Below, in pieces: positions 5,928 to 29,118 of a stretch of DNA of 64,000 nucleotides. The notes beneath the pieces were generated by a model, which searched no databases, was not told the DNA's origin, and saw only the letters and a list, made by a program, of their open reading frames with translations. How positions within the stretch are numbered: the first letter of the stretch is position 1; each line of letters starts with the position of its first letter. The DNA comes from Marinitoga litoralis (GTDB lineage Bacteria; Thermotogota; Thermotogae; Petrotogales; Petrotogaceae). Location of the stretch: the NCBI RefSeq assembly GCF_016908145.1, contig NZ_JAFBDI010000008.1:1-64000 (forward strand), read 5' to 3'. The position numbers were made by a program, and so were the translations under genes.

Positions 5928-6500
5928 ATGGTAAATGATATAGAAAGTTACTCATTTAAAACAAAAATAATAATATTTTTTCATATTATTGCAATAACCT
6001 ATGTAGAAATTACTTCCAGTATTTCATATTTTTGGGCTATAATGTTTCTTTTATATCTTATAGCAGTTTATATTGAAATAAAAGGCGATAAATCATTAAA
6101 ATTCTATTTTAAATTTAATAATTTCACTATTATATTTAAAAATAAATTGCTTTTATTTATATTGATTTTTTATCTTTTTGGAATATATATAAAGATTAAA
6201 AATTTTGATTTTAATGCTTTTTCTTCAATAGATTTAATGGCTATAACCTGGGCACCTATATACGAAGAAATATTATATAGATTAATAGTGATAGGTTTTT
6301 TGGAAATTATATTTAAAAGTAATAAGATAGTTTGTTTTATTTCAGCATTTATTTTTGCTATTGTTCATCAACAATATACATTGTTAGATGGAAAATTATT
6401 TATCTTTATATTTGCAATAATTAATTATTATTCATTTAAAAAATCTAAAACAATATATTCACCTATGCTTTATCATTTTCTCAATAATTCATTTTTTTAA
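5928..6500 (+). CDS. CPBP (Abi) family intramembrane metalloprotease
   Basis: A 190-residue multi-pass membrane protein with the CPBP glutamic-type/metal-dependent protease signature. The EExxxR motif is EEILYR (about residues 113-118), the second motif is FAIVH (about 143-147) and the third is the HFLNN near the C-terminus (about 183-187). There are roughly five to six hydrophobic segments. Family members process prenylated proteins or peptides and often provide self-immunity to bacteriocins. The start ATG follows AAAAAGGGTG. It is followed, after a second TGGCGCCA palindrome, by a small exported protein. Confidence 0.82.
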   Translation: MVNDIESYSFKTKIIIFFHIIAITYVEITSSISYFWAIMFLLYLIAVYIEIKGDKSLKFYFKFNNFTIIFKNKLLLFILIFYLFGIYIKIKNFDFNAFSSIDLMAITWAPIYEEILYRLIVIGFLEIIFKSNKIVCFISAFIFAIVHQQYTLLDGKLFIFIFAIINYYSFKKSKTIYSPMLYHFLNNSFF

Positions 6501-6540
6501 TAATTTTGTAAAAGATCTTTATAATTAATAATAATTAATT

Positions 6541-6552
6541 TCTGGCGCCAGA
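6541..6552. promoter_or_regulatory. TGGCGCCA palindrome, copy 2
   Basis: TCTGGCGCCAGA is a perfect 12-bp palindrome 15 bp downstream of a TATAAT near 6520 and 29 bp before the ATG of the exported protein. It shares the core TGGCGCCA with the site at 5752. The position just after a -10 element would suit a repressor site. Confidence 0.35.
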
Positions 6553-6580
6553 TAAAAATCTAAAAATCAGGAGAGATTGT

Positions 6581-7000
6581 ATGAATAAACGTATTTTTAT
6601 AGTATTTTTGGTAATTTTTGTAAGTTTAACAATTTTTTCAAATGGTGTAAAGTATTATGAAAATCAAAAAACGATACTCCCAGAAGAACAATTAGTTATA
6701 AAATCAAATATTAATTCATATGGAAAAGTTATATATACATTAGTAAGAGAATTTGCTTATGTAGTTATAGAGGATCAAATGGAAAAAGCTTATCATGAAA
6801 TCATTAGAATTGTTAAAAAAGATTATGAAGCTTATCTTGCCAAGAAAGCTGCTGAAGAAGAATATAACAGAAGAATTAGAGCCATTTTATCTCTTTTACA
6901 ATATCCAGTAAAAAATACTCGTTCTACAACTATTTATGAAAATTATACCAGACTTACAGAGTATGACTCAATTATCAGAAATAATGCAACTGTACAATAA
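6581..7000 (+). CDS. Small exported protein, unknown function
   Basis: A 139-residue protein with a classical signal peptide (MNKRIF followed by IVFLVIFVSLTIFSNG, cleavage probably after residue 20-23). The mature part is mostly helical and charged (EYNRRIRAILSLL near residue 95) and ends in a polar tail. The Shine-Dalgarno is CAGGAGAG before the ATG. It may be co-expressed with the CPBP protease upstream, although it has its own -10-like element. No family is recognised. Confidence 0.65.
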   Translation: MNKRIFIVFLVIFVSLTIFSNGVKYYENQKTILPEEQLVIKSNINSYGKVIYTLVREFAYVVIEDQMEKAYHEIIRIVKKDYEAYLAKKAAEEEYNRRIRAILSLLQYPVKNTRSTTIYENYTRLTEYDSIIRNNATVQ

Positions 7001-7047
7001 AATTCTCGGAGTTTTTTCAGATATTACTGCAAAAACAAGCACAAAAC

Positions 7048-7079
7048 AACCCCTCTACGCTGGGCATAGAGGGGTTTTA
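7048..7079. terminator. Bidirectional terminator between the exported protein and oraE
   Basis: AACCCCTCTA (7048-7057) pairs with TAGAGGGGTT (7067-7076) around a 9-nt loop. TTTT follows on the plus strand, and on the minus strand it follows the oraE stop closely. Confidence 0.85.
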
Positions 7080-7081
7080 TA

Positions 7082-9277
7082 TTATCCTTCCATCTTTTCT
7101 TTTAATTTTTTAGCAATAAATGTTGCAACGTGTGCTCCTTTTGTTCCTCTTCCAAATCCTGCGTCCATTCCGTTTTCTTTTGCTAAATCATCATTTAATT
7201 GAGTACCACCAACGATTAACAATATTTTATCCCTTACACCTTTTTCTATTGCTAATTGATGTAATTTTTTCATATTTTCCACATGGACATCGTTATGGGT
7301 AACAATCATTGAAGCAAGTATCGCCTGTGCTCCATATTCAATTGCAGCATCTATCATTTTTTCTGGTGGAACACTGGTGCCAAGGTATTCATATTTAATT
7401 CCATATTTTTCTATACCGCCGTGTTTAATATCTAATATTTCCCTTATACCTACATTATGTTCATCATTACCTACTGTACCAGCTACAACCTTAACTTTAT
7501 GTTTTGCGAAGAAGTCGAATAATTCATCATCTGACATAACTTCAGGTTTTTTAGGTAATACCAAATCATCTTTCTTTATTGCAAATGGAACTTTAGCTTT
7601 TAATTCAACATATGTTGCTTCTGTTGGATGAAGAACTGTTTTTGAAATAACCTGTGCATCTTCAAGTCCCATTCTTTTACATATTTCAAGTGCTGCAGCT
7701 TCTGCATATTCCTCAGATTCAGGAATTGTCATATCAAGTTGAATATAACCATCATAACTCCATTCAACCTCTGGTTTTATTAAATTATTTTCTCTATATT
7801 CTCTTATTTTATCTAATCTCTTATATACATTATCTTCATCATCTAATTCATCTATGTATTGTATTTTATCTGGATTACATAATGTACATCCATCTATTAA
7901 ATCACATGGCTTTTCTAAACCTTCTGGTAAATTATTATATCCAAAGTGATGACATACAGGAGCCATATAATCCTTATCTCTTGGTACAACAGTTCCTGCA
8001 CCTATACCTCCATCTTTCTTTCTAACAATACCATCACCCATTCTTTCTGGGTATTCCCCATTATCTACAAACATTCCATTTTCAACAGCTTCAAAATATC
8101 CACCCATTTCAATTATTTCTTCTAACATTAAAATAGCTCTCATCTTTAATTCTCTAACTTTTTCTCTTACATTATCCCAATTTACTTGAACCATTTCCTT
8201 AATACCATCAAGAGCTATTAATGTATGTTTAGCTGTTTCAACACCTCTAATTGAGTTAATATGCCATGGAACATTTCTTCCTTCATCAGGTGTAATAGTT
8301 GATTGAATATCTGCTTTTGTTAATCTTGAAATAAGTGTATCTAATACGTGTATTCTAGTAGCATCAAATAAATCTGATTCTATATATCTTGTGTTCATTT
8401 GTGCTCTGAATTTATAATCTTTGAATAATTCTCTAATTGTTAATGCATATACAAAGTTTAATCTAAATTCTGGAGTTGGTGAAACTATTGGTGGAACTGT
8501 AGATAATGCTATATTTTCTTTTTTCATTCCAGCTTTTACTGAATATAATGAATTAATAGCATGTTGTACTAATAATTCTGGCATAACCTTCCATGCAAAT
8601 TTAGCTGATGCATTAGCATTATGAGCACCATCAATTTGTAGCATGTTTGCTGATGCCATTATCTTTTTGGCCACTGCAGCATCAACAAATGACCTAATCA
8701 TGTTTATTCCTCTATACAATACGTTATATTGAGGATCCTGATGAGCACCATTTACCCCTTCTTCCGCAAATAAAACAGCAACTTCAGGACCTGCAACACC
8801 AGAAACATAACTGTGGAAGTTAATTGGTCTTCCTACTTCTTCTTCAATTAAATCCAATGCTTTTCTTGAAGCTCTTAATTGTTTTCTTGTTATTGGTATT
8901 CCACCAATACCTTCTGGTGTCCCCTCTATCAAACCATCCATATGGCTTTGACCCAGAGTTCTAATAACCATAATATGATCGGCACCATGCCAGGCAGCCA
9001 TTCTCATTCTTCTAATATCTTCTTCAAACCTACCGGAAGCAATTTCTGAAGTTATAACCTCCTGAGGTTGAGGATCTATATTTTTAAAGTAATGAGCTGC
9101 AGGTAATGCTACAAAGTTTTTTAAAGGTTTACTTACTTCATAATATTCAAAATCACCTATTTTTGTCTTAGGAGGTAATTTTTCTCTCCATGTCCAACCT
9201 TTTCTTTTTGGTCTATATTTATCTAAATCCTTTAATATTTCTTCAACATTCAATTTTTTGTTTGGCTCTAATTTCAT
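7082..9277 (-). CDS. oraE: D-ornithine 4,5-aminomutase, large (E) subunit
   Basis: This 731-residue protein is the cobalamin- and PLP-binding subunit of ornithine 4,5-aminomutase, which converts D-ornithine to 2,4-diaminopentanoate. The C-terminal quarter carries the B12-binding DxHxxG motif as DEHNVG, followed by the Rossmann-type ILLIVGGTQLND and a GFGRGTKGAHVATF tail. The N-terminal TIM-barrel part includes RTLGQSHMDGLIEGTPEG. Length fits characterised OraE. The start overlaps the end of oraS by 4 nt (ATGA), so the two subunits are translationally coupled. It is last in the ord-ortA-ortB-oraS-oraE operon. Adenosylcobalamin is required, but no cobalamin riboswitch is seen in this operon. 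Confidence 0.96.
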   Translation of the reverse strand: MKLEPNKKLNVEEILKDLDKYRPKRKGWTWREKLPPKTKIGDFEYYEVSKPLKNFVALPAAHYFKNIDPQPQEVITSEIASGRFEEDIRRMRMAAWHGADHIMVIRTLGQSHMDGLIEGTPEGIGGIPITRKQLRASRKALDLIEEEVGRPINFHSYVSGVAGPEVAVLFAEEGVNGAHQDPQYNVLYRGINMIRSFVDAAVAKKIMASANMLQIDGAHNANASAKFAWKVMPELLVQHAINSLYSVKAGMKKENIALSTVPPIVSPTPEFRLNFVYALTIRELFKDYKFRAQMNTRYIESDLFDATRIHVLDTLISRLTKADIQSTITPDEGRNVPWHINSIRGVETAKHTLIALDGIKEMVQVNWDNVREKVRELKMRAILMLEEIIEMGGYFEAVENGMFVDNGEYPERMGDGIVRKKDGGIGAGTVVPRDKDYMAPVCHHFGYNNLPEGLEKPCDLIDGCTLCNPDKIQYIDELDDEDNVYKRLDKIREYRENNLIKPEVEWSYDGYIQLDMTIPESEEYAEAAALEICKRMGLEDAQVISKTVLHPTEATYVELKAKVPFAIKKDDLVLPKKPEVMSDDELFDFFAKHKVKVVAGTVGNDEHNVGIREILDIKHGGIEKYGIKYEYLGTSVPPEKMIDAAIEYGAQAILASMIVTHNDVHVENMKKLHQLAIEKGVRDKILLIVGGTQLNDDLAKENGMDAGFGRGTKGAHVATFIAKKLKEKMEG

Positions 9278-21972: not shown

Positions 21973-24900
21973 TTAAAAAATACTTATATCTACACCTTTT
22001 TCTTCAGTATAACCGAATGATTTTTCTGGTATATCGGTAATAAAGAATTTTAATTCAAAACTTTTTAAAGAAAATTCTGGTAATAATTTTAAATCTCCTT
22101 TGAAATATAACGACCAACATATAATTTGTTTATTAATTTCAAATTGAGTAAAGTCCCAAACATTATTTTTAATATCATATATGAATGATATTCTTGCCCA
22201 ATCATATTTTGGAGAAGTATCATATCCTAGTCCTGTTTTTAAATATTCATTTTCTATATCATAATCTAAATTCAAAGTTAAAGATTGTTTAGAACCAGAA
22301 GATTTATATTTTAAATCATAATGAATATTTTTATATTCATTAAATAAATTCAAATTACCATCATATTTTCCGTTATTTTTATCATAAATAGTATATTTTG
22401 TTTTTATTTTAGGAACAGTTTCTTTGAATGTCTCTTTTTTAAAATAGTAATCATAATTTATTTCTATCTTATTTTTTCCAAAGTTTATTTCATCTATATT
22501 ATTAATAACAGATATTGGCAATTCATCATTTTTATGATCATAATCAAACTTATAATTATGTTTTAAAAAATCGTATTTAATATATCCATTAAAATTGGTT
22601 TTAATAAATTCAAATTTTTCTTTTTCTAAATCTGTTCTAGTATTATTTTCTAAAGAAAACTTAGAATAATTAAAAGAATATTTAGAAGTTAAAAAATGCC
22701 CAATAAATTGTTCTTCAGGATCTTTCATAAAATCAAAAGTTCTATTATAACGTATATCTAAACTATTTTTTGATTTAAAGATATTAAAATCAAAAAACAT
22801 ACCTGCAAAATCTGTTAATTTATTGGTATGTGTAGCGGGATTAGAGATCCATTTTGGTTCATTCACTAATACTCTATAATATTGATAATCAGACACACCA
22901 TATTGAAAAACAGATAATGTAGTTCTGAAATTAGCTTTTGTTCCATATGCATAGTAATTATATATCCTATTAGGATAATTATTTCTAAATGCAAATTTTA
23001 ATTCTGGAGTTAATGAAGAATTAAATGAAAAAATATTATTGTTATAATTTAAAGGGGTATATTTATCTGAAATATCATTTTTTATATATAAATTATAATT
23101 TTGGAATTCATTGTTTTCATATAATCCAGAATAACTAATTTTTATAGTATTTTTTTTATTTCCATTAAATATTTCAGAATCAAAAGATGTAGAAATATTT
23201 ATTTTTTTATTATCCCATGAATTGAAAATTTTTGTAGCAGGACCAGTTATATTTATTTTAGTTGAATTAAATTTAAAAAATGTTTTTTTATATTTTTTTG
23301 TTAAAGATGGAGTCGTTAAATTCATAAAATTAACTGATGATAATTTTCTATCTTTCCATGAAAATGAAGATGATACAGAAAAATTTCCTAAATCAGTTTT
23401 GATATCTTTTAAATTAATAGATAGCGAATCAACATTTGATGAGAAATTATGCGAAATAGAGGATGAAAAATTTAAATTATTTAGTTTATTTGATAATGTA
23501 AGGTTTAAATTGTTAATTGAATTATCTTTAATGCTGTTAGAAATAGCTAAAGTTCCTATTATAAATGGAATAGAATATGTATAATTAATTGTTTCGGAAA
23601 GTGTATCTTCTTTTACATTTCTAATGTATTCTTGTGAAAATGATAATTGTGACTTATTTGCAAATGTATGGTTTATTTTTACCGATATGGTTACAGTATC
23701 TTCTTTGAATGCAAATGCAGCGATAAAAGGAGCTTCTTTTTCTCCAGATAAACTTTGAAAATAAAACGGGAAATAAAAAACTGGTATTCCAAAAAATTCT
23801 AAGGTTATATCCCTAGCAACAAGGAATTCTTCTGGATATATTGTTACATGGGAAGCTTTAAAATAATAAGTAATACATTCTTTACATGTTGTCATTTTAA
23901 CTCTTTCAGAAAAAACAACATCTTCATTTGTTTTTTTTTCTGAAATTTCTGACCAAACTCTAACTTTTACGTCTTTTTTATCCTTGTTTTTAAAAGATTC
24001 TATGGAATATGTATTATTTAATATAACATCGTTACTTTCAAAATTAATTTCCATTGAAGAAGCTTCTATGGTTCTTTTTTCATAGGTATAATATACATTA
24101 CCTGTTAAATTCGCTTTGAGTATTTTATTATTTTCATCTAAATAACCAATACCTTTTTCAGCTTTTATAACAGAGTCTTTATAATTTATAGTAGTATTTC
24201 CTTCAAATATTAATTTAGTACCTTCAATACTAATATTAGGTGAATCAATATATACTTTTTCAGAAAAACCTTGAGAACTAAAAATAATTAATATAACAAT
24301 AACACCTAATATTCTTTTTAAAGGTTCAATTAATTTGTAAGCAGCTCTAGTATCTAATAAAATGAATAAAGTAAGTCCAATTAAGCTGAAAATAATATTT
24401 GGTATCCACGGAGCTAAATAAGGGTTTAATATTTTTTCTTTTCCTAATGCACTTAACCAAGCACCAGAACCTTGGTATAATACAACTAATACAAAGGTTG
24501 AAATAACGCTCCAAGATTTACTTCTTAAATTAATAAATAGTGATAATGCAACACCTAATAATGAAATAACTATTGGAGCTACTGAATTAGAAAATTTTTC
24601 TTGATATCCAACAATTAATGCTGATGCATCTCCACCCAACTTTTGCGTTATTTGAATCTTGTTTTTTAATTCTTTTGTAGTCATATCATTTGGACTTTTA
24701 GAAAAACGCAAATATTCCTCAACATCTTTAGAAATATCTAATTCCAGTTTTTTAAATGTAATATCTAATTTTAATAAACCATCATCAGACAGTCTAAAAA
24801 TTCTCCCATTTTCCATATACCATTTATCATTATCTTTAAAAGCTTTTTCTGCATGGAAAACAGTAGTTTTAGAATAATCAACATCGTATAACAATATTCC

Positions 24901-25419
24901 ATATAACAATCCAGAATCTTTATCAATTTTTCTTACGTATAAATACTTTTTATTTTTTTCTACCTCTACAAATTTATTCATTTCTATATTAGCTTCCACA
25001 TTTTTATACACATATTTAGAAATAGCTTCTTTTGCCTTCATGTTTGATTTTGGAACTATTGTATCATATAATGAAAATGTAACTAAGGATAATATCATTG
25101 ATAATACTAAAAAAGGAATGACAATTCTTTTTGAAGGAATTCCTAATGATTGAAGAGCTATAATTTCATTATCATTGGATAATCTCGATAAAACCCAGAA
25201 TATAGAAAAAAGTATTCCAACTGGAATACCCATTACTAAGAAATAAGGTATATGATATGAAATTAAAATGAAGAGTTTATCAATTCCAACTTTATTTCTT
25301 ACTATTATATCAGACAATTGATATAACAACTCTACACTAACAAAAACGATAAACCCAACTAAACCCATTAAAAATGGAGAGATAAATTCTTTTGATATAT
25401 ATTTTAGTAACTTTATCAT
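21973..25419 (-). CDS. Fusion of an LptF/LptG permease with an LptA/LptD-like assembly protein
   Basis: A single 1148-residue frame. Residues 1 to about 365 are an LptF/LptG (YjgP/YjgQ) permease: three N-terminal membrane helices, a periplasmic beta domain (about 115-265) and three more helices ending near RAAYKLIEPLKR. Residues about 370-390 form a seventh hydrophobic segment that looks like a signal peptide (ILGVIVILIIFSSQGFS). Then comes an OstA/LptA-like beta-jellyroll (about 390-480). Next is an LptD-like region with TTCKECITYYFKASHV and FFGIPVFYFPFYF, and a long C-terminal stretch of alternating aromatic/polar beta strands to residue 1148. In diderms these parts export lipopolysaccharide and insert it in the outer membrane. 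Topology is consistent: six helices leave the C-end in the cytoplasm and the seventh delivers the rest outside. It lies between phoU and udg. Confidence 0.8.
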   Translation of the reverse strand: MIKLLKYISKEFISPFLMGLVGFIVFVSVELLYQLSDIIVRNKVGIDKLFILISYHIPYFLVMGIPVGILFSIFWVLSRLSNDNEIIALQSLGIPSKRIVIPFLVLSMILSLVTFSLYDTIVPKSNMKAKEAISKYVYKNVEANIEMNKFVEVEKNKKYLYVRKIDKDSGLLYGILLYDVDYSKTTVFHAEKAFKDNDKWYMENGRIFRLSDDGLLKLDITFKKLELDISKDVEEYLRFSKSPNDMTTKELKNKIQITQKLGGDASALIVGYQEKFSNSVAPIVISLLGVALSLFINLRSKSWSVISTFVLVVLYQGSGAWLSALGKEKILNPYLAPWIPNIIFSLIGLTLFILLDTRAAYKLIEPLKRILGVIVILIIFSSQGFSEKVYIDSPNISIEGTKLIFEGNTTINYKDSVIKAEKGIGYLDENNKILKANLTGNVYYTYEKRTIEASSMEINFESNDVILNNTYSIESFKNKDKKDVKVRVWSEISEKKTNEDVVFSERVKMTTCKECITYYFKASHVTIYPEEFLVARDITLEFFGIPVFYFPFYFQSLSGEKEAPFIAAFAFKEDTVTISVKINHTFANKSQLSFSQEYIRNVKEDTLSETINYTYSIPFIIGTLAISNSIKDNSINNLNLTLSNKLNNLNFSSSISHNFSSNVDSLSINLKDIKTDLGNFSVSSSFSWKDRKLSSVNFMNLTTPSLTKKYKKTFFKFNSTKINITGPATKIFNSWDNKKINISTSFDSEIFNGNKKNTIKISYSGLYENNEFQNYNLYIKNDISDKYTPLNYNNNIFSFNSSLTPELKFAFRNNYPNRIYNYYAYGTKANFRTTLSVFQYGVSDYQYYRVLVNEPKWISNPATHTNKLTDFAGMFFDFNIFKSKNSLDIRYNRTFDFMKDPEEQFIGHFLTSKYSFNYSKFSLENNTRTDLEKEKFEFIKTNFNGYIKYDFLKHNYKFDYDHKNDELPISVINNIDEINFGKNKIEINYDYYFKKETFKETVPKIKTKYTIYDKNNGKYDGNLNLFNEYKNIHYDLKYKSSGSKQSLTLNLDYDIENEYLKTGLGYDTSPKYDWARISFIYDIKNNVWDFTQFEINKQIICWSLYFKGDLKLLPEFSLKSFELKFFITDIPEKSFGYTEEKGVDISIF

Positions 25420-25422
25420 TAA

Positions 25423-26142
25423 TTATTCCTCCATAGTATAAAAAATCTCAAATCCATCCTTAGTACATTTATACTTATCCCCAGTAATTATATATATTGA
25501 ATATTCAGAAATATTTGTTGTTAAGTCAGCAAACTTCTCTATATTAGATAAAATTTCAATATTTGCCATTATGGATCTAAAATTTTCTTTAGAAGCCCTG
25601 CTCATTAAATTTTTTTTAAAAGCCTTATACAAACTATCAACTTCTAAATCTGTTTTACAAATCCATTTAGCTATATCCAATAATTCTTTTTCAGAATGAG
25701 TATTATCTATAATTAAAGAAAATAACTTTAAAGTTTCTCCTAACATATCTTGTGCAATTTCAAATAAATCTTCAAATTGATAAGGATTAATAGAATTAGG
25801 ATAAGAAAGAAGATCTACATTGTTTTTTGCCATTGTTTCACACATATCAGCCATACTTTCCATTACACCAATAATTTTATTACCTAAAAAAACTAATTTA
25901 TATGATTTACCAAATAAATTGTGAATAGCCAATATTTCCATAGCTTTAAATTCTAATCTCGATTCAATAAAATCCACTCTTGTATCTTGTTGAATTATTT
26001 CTTTTGAGAGATTTACATTTTTTTCAAAAAATGCATCTTTGAATTTTAAAAACATGCCTTGGACTATACGTCCCATTTTTAATATTTCATTATGATATGA
26101 AAGCACTGTTTTTTTAGTTTCTTCAGGTAGTAAGTCTATCAT
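25423..26142 (-). CDS. PhoU-domain protein
   Basis: A 239-residue all-helical protein with two PhoU repeats. The family segment is recognisable in NIEILSNIEKFADLTTNISEYSIYIITG near the C-terminus, and a weaker version (FLGNKIIGVMESMADMCETMAKNNV) is in the first half. PhoU proteins damp phosphate uptake and Pho signalling and bind metals. No phosphate transporter is beside it. It overlaps nadK by 4 nt (ATGA) and lies 3 nt before the LptF/LptD fusion, so it is part of the housekeeping operon. Confidence 0.85.
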   Translation of the reverse strand: MIDLLPEETKKTVLSYHNEILKMGRIVQGMFLKFKDAFFEKNVNLSKEIIQQDTRVDFIESRLEFKAMEILAIHNLFGKSYKLVFLGNKIIGVMESMADMCETMAKNNVDLLSYPNSINPYQFEDLFEIAQDMLGETLKLFSLIIDNTHSEKELLDIAKWICKTDLEVDSLYKAFKKNLMSRASKENFRSIMANIEILSNIEKFADLTTNISEYSIYIITGDKYKCTKDGFEIFYTMEE

Positions 26143-26966
26143 ATAATTCTCCTTCCAAAACCGAGCTTACTATTTAACACTTTATAAAATGAATAGTCGT
26201 TTTTTTGAGCTAAAGTTACTTTTTTTTCAGAAGAAGTAACAACAACAGCCATTCCAGCTTCAATCCTATGAACAATATCACCATCTACAGTAACATATGC
26301 ATTTCCAGCGTCTATATGGTTAATTATAATCTCAATATAATTATCAGGTGAGATAATGAGCGGTCTAATGTTTAGAGAATGTGAAGCTAGAGGGTTTATT
26401 GATATTAAATTTAAAGCAGGATCTACAATAGGTCCTCCCATAGACAACGCATAACCCGTTGAACCTGTAGGTGTAGATAATATAACCCCATCTCCAGAAT
26501 AATTTAAAACACTTTCACCTTTAATTAAAATTTCCAAGTCTACTGTACCTATTGGTTGACTTTTTTGAACAGTAATATCATTTAAGGAAATTAATTTTTT
26601 CCCACCAACATAACATTCTAATAGGAATCTATCAGAATAATGTAAATTATTTGATGATATATCTATAGCAGCTTGTTCAATTTCTGTACTATCATATGCC
26701 GTTAAAAATCCTAAAGTACCTAAATTAATACCAATGATAGGCACTGAATATTCTGCTGATAATTCGGCAACTCTTAATACAGTACCGTCTCCACCTAAGA
26801 CAATAAAAATATCTGCTTCATTGTATAATGAATTATCAGCTAAAGCAGATCCTGCGGGCATTATTTTTAAAATTTCAATGCCATTTTTTTGAAAAATATC
26901 TATAAATTGTTCTTCTATTTCATCTTTTTTGGCTTTAATAGGATTAAAAAATAATATAGTTTTCAA
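26139..26966 (-). CDS. nadK: NAD kinase
   Basis: A 275-residue kinase that phosphorylates NAD to NADP. The diacylglycerol-kinase-like signature GGDGTVLRVAE (about residues 57-67) and the second motif TPTGSTGYALSMGGPIV (about 164-180) are intact. TTG at 26966 is preferred as start because GAGGTGAT gives it a normal spacer and the protein then begins MKTILFFNP; GTG at 26975 abuts the Shine-Dalgarno and adds three residues. It lies 5 nt after yggT and overlaps phoU by 4 nt. Confidence 0.93.
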   Translation of the reverse strand: MKTILFFNPIKAKKDEIEEQFIDIFQKNGIEILKIMPAGSALADNSLYNEADIFIVLGGDGTVLRVAELSAEYSVPIIGINLGTLGFLTAYDSTEIEQAAIDISSNNLHYSDRFLLECYVGGKKLISLNDITVQKSQPIGTVDLEILIKGESVLNYSGDGVILSTPTGSTGYALSMGGPIVDPALNLISINPLASHSLNIRPLIISPDNYIEIIINHIDAGNAYVTVDGDIVHRIEAGMAVVVTSSEKKVTLAQKNDYSFYKVLNSKLGFGRRII

Positions 26967-26971
26967 ATCAA

Positions 26972-27271
26972 TCACCTCAGTATTCTTGCTAAATCAAATA
27001 ATGTCGCAACTAGGAAATTATCTAATAATATTAATAATAATATAGCAACAAATGGTGTAAAGTCAAACATTCCAAAAGTTAAATTTAAATATCTTCTTAT
27101 AGGTCTTTCTACAATTTCAGCAATAGAATCGAAGAAATGTCTAATAGGATGATGATAATTAAAAGAAATAAAGCTAAAAATTGCTGATATAATAATAGAT
27201 ATTTCAAAAAAATTAATAACTATTCTTAATACAACTGCTAATGAGTAGAATAAATTTGCTAAAATAAACAT
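26972..27271 (-). CDS. yggT: YggT-family membrane protein
   Basis: A 99-residue protein with a hydrophobic segment at each end (about residues 8-38 and 70-95) and the family's HHPIRHF...IVERPIRRYL between them. YggT proteins sit next to yggS in many bacteria; their role in envelope or division is not settled. The start at 27271 is chosen because CAGGAGGT precedes this ATG at a normal distance; an upstream in-frame start would overlap yggS by 32 nt. It lies 4 nt after yggS. Confidence 0.88.
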   Translation of the reverse strand: MFILANLFYSLAVVLRIVINFFEISIIISAIFSFISFNYHHPIRHFFDSIAEIVERPIRRYLNLTFGMFDFTPFVAILLLILLDNFLVATLFDLARILR

Positions 27272-27275
27272 TTTA

Positions 27276-27962
27276 TCAACCTCCTGTACTATAATTTCTA
27301 TTTCCAAAAATACTAGATCCTATTCTCAACATAGTAGAACCAGCTTCAATAGCTATATGATAATCATTACTCATTCCCATAGAAAGTTCTTTTAAATTTG
27401 GATAATATTTTATATATTCGTCTCTTAAACTTTTAAGTTTTAAAAAAACATTTCTAATTATTTCTTCATTATCAGTATATGGAGCCATAGTCATTAACCC
27501 AACCACTTGTACATTTTCAAATTGCTTTGAAAATTCCAATAAATCTTTTAATTCATTTTCTGTAATTCCACCCTTTGATTCTTCGCCTGATACATTTAAT
27601 TCAATTAATATTTTTTGTATTTTATTATACTTTTTTGCTACCTTATCTATTTCTTCAATTTCCTTTTCTCTATAAACAGAATGAATATATTTCGCAACAG
27701 GAACTATATATTTTATTTTATTTGTTTGTATTCTTCCAATAAAATGCCAATTAATATCTAAATCGCTTAACTCTTGAGCTTTATATCTTAATTCTTGAGC
27801 TTTATTTTCAGCAAAATCTCTTATACCAAAATCATATGCTTCTTTTATATATTCAATAGGGAATGTTTTTGATACAGCTATTAAAAGTATATCGTTTCTA
27901 TTAGATGCATATAATTTAATTTTATTCTGTATTTCAGAAAGATTTTTCTTGATAAAATCCAT
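27276..27962 (-). CDS. yggS: PLP homeostasis protein (YggS/PROSC family)
   Basis: A 228-residue fold-type III PLP-binding barrel with no known catalytic reaction that balances vitamin B6 and amino/keto-acid pools. The PLP lysine is in LIAVSKTFP (about residue 32). Further family segments are FAENKAQEL, WHFIGRIQTNK and LSMGMSNDYHIAIEAGSTMLRIG. It lies 1 nt after ruvB and 4 nt before yggT. Confidence 0.94.
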   Translation of the reverse strand: MDFIKKNLSEIQNKIKLYASNRNDILLIAVSKTFPIEYIKEAYDFGIRDFAENKAQELRYKAQELSDLDINWHFIGRIQTNKIKYIVPVAKYIHSVYREKEIEEIDKVAKKYNKIQKILIELNVSGEESKGGITENELKDLLEFSKQFENVQVVGLMTMAPYTDNEEIIRNVFLKLKSLRDEYIKYYPNLKELSMGMSNDYHIAIEAGSTMLRIGSSIFGNRNYSTGG

Positions 27963-27963
27963 T

Positions 27964-28989
27964 TTAATTCCCCCATAATGAATATAATTTCTTATTATCC
28001 TCTTTAGAAATACCTAAATGTTTTAATGCTTTTTCCGTTATCAGTCTTCCTCTATGAGTTCTAACAATAAACCCATTTTGGAGTAAATAAGGTTCATATA
28101 CTTCGCTTATACTATCAGCTTCTATTCCTAATGAAGCTGCTAATGCTTTTAAACCAACAGGACCACCATTATAATAATCTATAATAGTATTTAATATCCT
28201 TCTATCCATTTCATCTAAACCTTCATTGTCTATTTCAAGTAATTCCATGGTTTTTTTTGCAGAATCTAAATCAATAACACCATTATTGTTTATTTGTGCA
28301 TAATCTCTAACTCTTTTTAACAATCTATTAGCAATTCTTGGAGTGCCTCTTGAACGTTCAGCTATTAATAATGCAGCATCATCAGTAATTTCAACATTTA
28401 ACAATTTAGCGCTTCTAGAAATAATTTCTTTTAATTCTTCTGGTGGATAAAAATTCATTTCCATTATAATTCCAAATCTACTTCTTAGCGGAGCGGCAAT
28501 TAAACCTGTTCTAGTGGTCGCCCCTATTAATGTAAAATGATTTAAATCAATTCTAATAGATCTAGCTCCGGGACCTTTTCCGATGACAATATCAAGTTGA
28601 AAATCTTCCATAGCAGAATATAGTATTTCCTCAACAGATCTATTTATTCTATGAATTTCATCAATAAATAATACGTCTCCATTTTGTAAATTAGTCAAAA
28701 TAGCAGCTAAATCTCCCGCTCTTTCAAGTACAGGACCGCTAGTTACTTGTATATTTGCTCCCATTTCATTTGCTATAACATTTGCTAATGTGGTTTTACC
28801 CAAACCAGGAGGTCCTGCTAATAATATATGATCAAGCGGCTCTTTTCTTTTTTTAGCCGCATCAATAGTTATTTTTAATTTTTCTTTTACCTTTTCTTGA
28901 CCTATATATTCTTTTAAATATTGTGGTCTTAGATTAATTATTGTACTTTCTTCACTTTTTTCAGTAGGGTCTAATATTCTATCGTCCAT
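27964..28989 (-). CDS. ruvB: Holliday junction branch migration helicase RuvB
   Basis: A 341-residue AAA+ ATPase that drives branch migration with RuvA. Walker A is [11 protein letters not shown] (about residues 58-68), Walker B is LFIDEIHR (about 107-114), sensor I lies in [12 protein letters not shown], and the C-terminal winged helix ([28 protein letters not shown]) is complete. The start at 28989 follows GGAGG with a 6-nt spacer; an upstream in-frame start would add 21 unlikely residues. It heads the operon ruvB-yggS-yggT-nadK-phoU-lptFD-udg. Confidence 0.97.
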
Positions 28990-29118
28990 ATAATACCTCC
29001 ATTCTACTGATATATTATAACATATAATTATTAGGTAATTATTAAATGACAAAAAAAATTAAAATTTAAAAGAATTTGATGTATAATAAATAATAATATT
29101 ATAGTTCGGAGGAAAATA

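Follow-up and report, generated by a model that had tools for sequence, protein, structure and literature searches.

Organization and conservation of the lptFG-lptD locus

The window, by which the whole stretch of 64,000 nucleotides of Marinitoga litoralis DNA analysed here is meant, carries a single gene in which an LptF/LptG-type permease is joined in frame to an LptD-type protein (Table 1). The fused frame is confirmed as real, and one uninterrupted frame crosses the junction between the two moieties in 94 distinct Thermotogota genomes, single-contig genomes included, when the orthologous frames of the fetched loci are counted after removal of duplicate loci. Since this identical, intact junction recurs across the phylum, the probability that the fusion is a frameshift or an artefact of sequencing or assembly is negligible, even if certain single copies are damaged, one by a stop (L005) and another by indels (L031). 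The first of these copies, from genome G043, has one in-frame TAA at about residue 755, and the second, from Marinitoga lauensis (L031/L107), is split into five frames, likely by sequencing indels. When other Thermotogota were searched for the fusion, as the first-pass annotation had proposed, it proved to be a phylum-wide feature, and the frameshift or assembly error which that annotation had considered for the junction did not come to light.

The fusion was sought in Thermotogota genomes, in a set of 103, of which 101 gave a protein match and 100 an LptF/G match; the nearest named relative is M. lauensis. The gene order ruvB-yggS-yggT-nadK-phoU-lptFGD is retained across many families of the phylum.

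Table 1. Features of the lptFG-lptD locus, in window coordinates
Feature	Position	Strand	Basis or remark
lptFG-lptD fused gene	21973..25419	-	single ORF, 1148 aa, ATG start, 0 internal stops
LptF/LptG permease moiety, residues 6-352	24364..25404	-	Pfam PF03739, 2e-79; TM segments 1-3, periplasmic domain, TM segments 4-6
internal signal-peptide-like segment, residues 368-386, KR-ILGVIVILIIFSSQGFS	24262..24318	-	cut by signal peptidase predicted between Ser386 and Glu387
LptD N-terminal beta-taco (OstA) domain and TTC...Y...P.FY.P motif leading into the barrel, residues 387-590	23650..24261	-	hhalign, PDB profile, Foldseek
codon of invariant Cys512	23884..23886	-	equivalent of E. coli LptD Cys173; FTSC motif alignment
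predicted outer-membrane beta-barrel of LptD, residues 597-1148, C-terminal Phe	21976..23631	-	hydrophobic alternation
codon of Cys1101, [L/I][H/I]CW motif	22117..22119	-	probable equivalent of E. coli LptD Cys725
upstream operon genes ruvB-yggS-yggT-nadK-phoU-like	25423..29052	-	conserved order with lptFG-lptD

The permease moiety

The N-terminal moiety aligns with practically the full length of the PF03739 profile (LptF_LptG; profile positions 1-351) at 267.6 bits against a gathering threshold of 27.9, with an E-value of 4.6e-81 in the genome-wide search, and it also matches solved LptG and LptF chains. It nevertheless falls below the cut-offs of both equivalog models, with 158 of the 230 bits demanded by TIGR04407 and 146 of the 240 demanded by TIGR04408, and is thus neither LptF nor LptG. 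This LptF/G match is unique in its own genome, and nearly every Thermotogota genome in the set (n = 103) has a single one. The topology of LptF/G proteins is established, and after six membrane segments the chain is cytoplasmic; the six segments of the moiety therefore place the chain in the cytoplasm ahead of a seventh one, which agrees with a signal peptide at that point.

Evidence that the C-terminal part is LptD

The single Marinitoga sequence matches the Pfam LptD_N model weakly (E 0.016), whereas 30 of 55 relatives match it, the best at 2e-8 and many over the cut-off. When a profile of the C-terminal part was aligned by hhalign with seven proteobacterial LptD proteins, a probability of 98.5 (E 4e-15) was obtained over the N-terminal domain and into the start of the barrel; 20 column-shuffled controls reached at most 0.2 and a reversed alignment 2.2. 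All 11 matches with E < 1 in a search of the PDB with the profile of 55 C-terminal parts are Lpt proteins (LptA and LptD), the LptD structures including 7omm (8.2e-5, over residues 90-288) and 8h1r (2.5e-4). In addition, the stretch TTC-x4-PHY...A...PxFYxPxYF aligns with FTSC...W...VPIFYSP of E. coli LptD, and the pre-barrel motif C...W/HY...A...vPvfY.P could be aligned to both the E. coli and the Neisseria proteins. An AF2 model of the 211-residue N-terminal domain is confident over the first ~75 residues; LptD, LptA and LptC head its list of Foldseek matches, although no E-value falls below 0.001. Taken together, these data demonstrate that the N-terminal domain of the C-terminal part is that of LptD. 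In families f6, f11 and part of f10 the taco is longer by about 50-90 residues.

The first-pass annotation had placed LptF/G, LptA and LptD regions in one frame. LptF/G and LptD are there, but the LptA-like region is LptD's own N-terminal domain and the chain contains no extra LptA, which is encoded as a separate secreted protein of 213 aa (G000:C29 in this genome).

The C-terminal barrel of LptD consists of about 26 strands. The last 550 residues of the fused protein show barrel-like alternation in a fraction of 0.235 of the windows, as compared with a maximum of 0.149 after shuffling, with about 31 peaks, and this pattern as well as the C-terminal Phe fit such a barrel. Barrel-only hhalign gave no significant alignment to known LptD barrels, the sequence being too diverged, the LptD barrel Pfam models found no match in the C-terminal part, and AlphaFold predictions of this part from four sequences (mean pLDDT 35) did not resolve the barrel. 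Two cysteines deserve mention. Cys512 is conserved in 55 of 55 sequences, while Cys1101, within an LHCW motif, is kept in 44 of 55; the best alignment of the barrels alone, in itself non-significant, pairs it with E. coli Cys725, to which it probably corresponds. In members of the related family f2 (L050, L061, L062 and L075), the LptD part is extended by about 300 residues in the region bounded by the conserved cysteines.

The diverged barrel sequence and its failure to match the barrel models could also point to a generic outer membrane protein with an OstA domain that is not LptD. This is very unlikely, given that the profile match spans the whole LptD N-terminal domain, that the pre-barrel C...P.FY.P motif is specific to LptD as opposed to LptA, and that both the conserved cysteine and the C-terminal one are present.

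Segment 7 at the junction

The seventh hydrophobic segment, located between the two moieties, has a core (Ile370-Phe380) that follows Lys368-Arg369 and is found in every aligned relative. The proposed -1 position is occupied by Ser, Ala or Gly in 49 of 55 non-redundant relatives, against a background of 19%, and the proposed cut follows the last Lys or Arg at a distance of 15-23 residues, with a median of 17 among the 55 relatives, meaning that the length of the core is tightly constrained. The -3 position is sometimes Phe or Leu, a departure from the ideal A-x-A. The n-, h- and c-regions of a signal peptide as well as a small -1 residue can thus be recognized at the junction, and the signal peptides of the secreted LptA proteins of the phylum, such as MKK-IILIAFATLLSIIIFSS and MKK-SLIAFFILVSLFAFS-K, share the same geometry. 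Judged by its residues, the segment has signal peptide character, in line with what the first-pass annotation had noticed. In most members, the first strand of the taco begins only a few residues behind segment 7.

Natural splits of the fusion

Two genomes encode the moieties as separate proteins. In G053, LptFG terminates at a TGA just a few bases ahead of the start codon (ATG) for an independent LptD of 848 aa, which starts with a new n-region, MHLRYKSFSP, and has a complete signal peptide; this split is known from one genome, which is 80% complete, and the sequence of its sister G054 does not extend over the junction. That the fused relatives lack anything corresponding to the new n-region speaks against a shift in base calling. 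In G005, two adjacent LptF/G paralogs are found, whereas an LptD of 849 aa with its own signal peptide is encoded on another contig. The LptF/LptG-like pair (L099:4992-6173 and 6195-7322) represents a lineage-specific duplication of LptFG after loss of the fusion, by which a heteromeric permease apparently re-evolved. In phylogenetic trees both genomes nest inside fused clades, so they are most simply explained as secondary splits. It follows that the covalent link is dispensable in these lineages and that the C-terminal part needs just a signal peptide.

A secreted OstA protein of 603 aa in G005 (L167:4297-6105, C50) was considered as its LptD and rejected, being an LptA-like repeat protein, with the real LptD on the other contig. 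It looks like three tandem LptA-like units of ~190 aa: three LptD_N stretches were detected, the repeats being too diverged for self-BLAST. The sequence has the appearance of a ready-joined LptA chain.

Other components of the Lpt machine

The first-pass annotation had advised a search for lptB, lptC and lipid A genes, of which the first was found and the others were not. LptB is encoded at equivalog level in 98 of 103 genomes, with 282.9 bits against the TIGR04406 cut-off of 240 in the genome of M. litoralis. No separate LptC protein was recognized in these genomes, and the motor therefore differs from that of E. coli; LptC Pfam matches over the cut-off were rejected as LptC since those that were checked lie within the LptA-like ORF. 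None of the 103 Thermotogota genomes has LpxC, and LpxK gave no match over the cut-off in Thermotogota genomes, in agreement with an earlier report of Thermotogae without LPS genes (PMC5007114). BamA is encoded elsewhere in the genome.

The lptB gene directly adjoins a gene for an OmpH/Skp-like periplasmic chaperone (L166:6733-7945, L169:6881-8085). The lptA gene is preceded by genes for patatin-like phospholipases and by a large secreted gene (L165:706-4987, L168:3938-7285), which in the second genome, G090 (L168), encodes an SLH-coiled-coil protein resembling Omp-alpha. This neighbourhood suggests an envelope biogenesis cluster.

Proposed pathway

The reading that is considered likely as a whole is that of a two-protein precursor which would be cut by signal peptidase into a homodimeric LptB2(FG)2 motor and a free LptD, together exporting a non-LPS lipid to the toga. 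Cleavage, homodimer, LptA bridge and cargo are what we infer here. LptF/G would be made first, its sixth membrane segment leaving the chain in the cytoplasm; segment 7 would then act as an internal signal peptide and re-enter Sec, and signal peptidase I would cut at about Ser386|Glu387. The permease would stay in the inner membrane and, with no other LptF/G protein encoded in the genome, presumably form a homodimer driven by LptB, the product of a separate gene. Once released, the C-terminal part would constitute a full LptD, with taco and barrel, to be inserted by BamA into the outer membrane, that is, the toga. There, LptD would insert the lipid which the homodimeric permease and LptB had extracted and the secreted LptA, bridging the periplasm, had carried. 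With no lipid A synthesis, the machine should carry another amphiphile, probably a glycolipid.

Of the two mechanisms envisaged in the first-pass annotation, a cleaved polyprotein and a chain spanning the periplasm, the former is clearly favoured by these sequence-based arguments. If the chain stayed uncut, segment 7 would be a permanent anchor that replaces the LptC helix, and a single polypeptide would link the two membranes. A separate LptC has indeed not been recognized, and the hydrophobicity of segment 7 over 19 residues (KD 2.09) is similar to that of the other membrane segments, but this arrangement is improbable. The small -1 residue and the short constrained core at the junction speak against it, as do the two lineages that live with separate proteins (G053 and G005) and the fact that a homodimer would carry two barrels. 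Moreover, the taco follows so closely behind segment 7 in most members that no room is left for LptA within the chain, and the coiled-coil spacer of T. maritima Omp-alpha, with a predicted length of 45 nm (PMC9388160), by far exceeds the estimated length of a taco of ~200 residues. There is likewise a slim chance that the precursor remains uncut or that its cleavage follows assembly; an inner-membrane-anchored chain with its LptD barrel in the outer membrane would then join the membranes at Lpt sites.

Comparison with known systems

When compared with the LptB2FGC-LptA-LptDE machine of E. coli and Pseudomonas, the Thermotogota system shares the LptF/G fold, the N-terminal domain of LptD with its motif and the Cys173 equivalent, LptB and LptA. 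It differs in that a single ORF encodes both LptF/G and LptD, that there is one LptF/G gene, that no LptC was recognized and that lipid A synthesis is absent. A precursor in which a polytopic inner membrane protein is joined through an internal signal peptide to an exported protein is known from Bradyrhizobium, where FbcH gives rise to cytochromes b and c1 and both products remain at the inner membrane; the second product of the Thermotogota precursor, in contrast, is predicted to reach the outer membrane. Borrelia burgdorferi also has an Lpt-like system including LptD, without LPS and without LptE, but its LptF, LptG and LptD genes are separate (PMC10353723). The Lpt cluster of Negativicutes and Halanaerobiales resembles the Thermotogota system in its single LptF/G homologue, accompanied by small OstA proteins, yet these bacteria make LPS and no LptD was found in them (PMC5007114), whereas in Thermotogota LptD is present and fused to LptF/G.

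The Lpt parts themselves are of known kinds; what is new is the phylum-wide LptFG-LptD precursor and the presence of an Lpt machine including LptD in Thermotogota. A search of the open-access literature did not turn up any account of the fusion. The precursor would represent a bacterial polyprotein with one half serving the inner and the other the outer membrane. The relevance of the fusion to toga biogenesis, as initially suggested, is supported, and both the construction of the toga and the lipid of its outer leaflet become testable questions; the findings are also relevant to the question of whether an outer membrane dependent on Lpt was present in the bacterial ancestor. In a gene survey, Thermotogae appeared to lack nearly all tested outer membrane genes save bamA, and lptD was confined to LPS-making diderms (PMC8871954). 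Against this picture, LptF/G, LptD, LptA and LptB occur throughout Thermotogota, and it is plausible that the fusion, together with sequence divergence, caused these genes to be missed.
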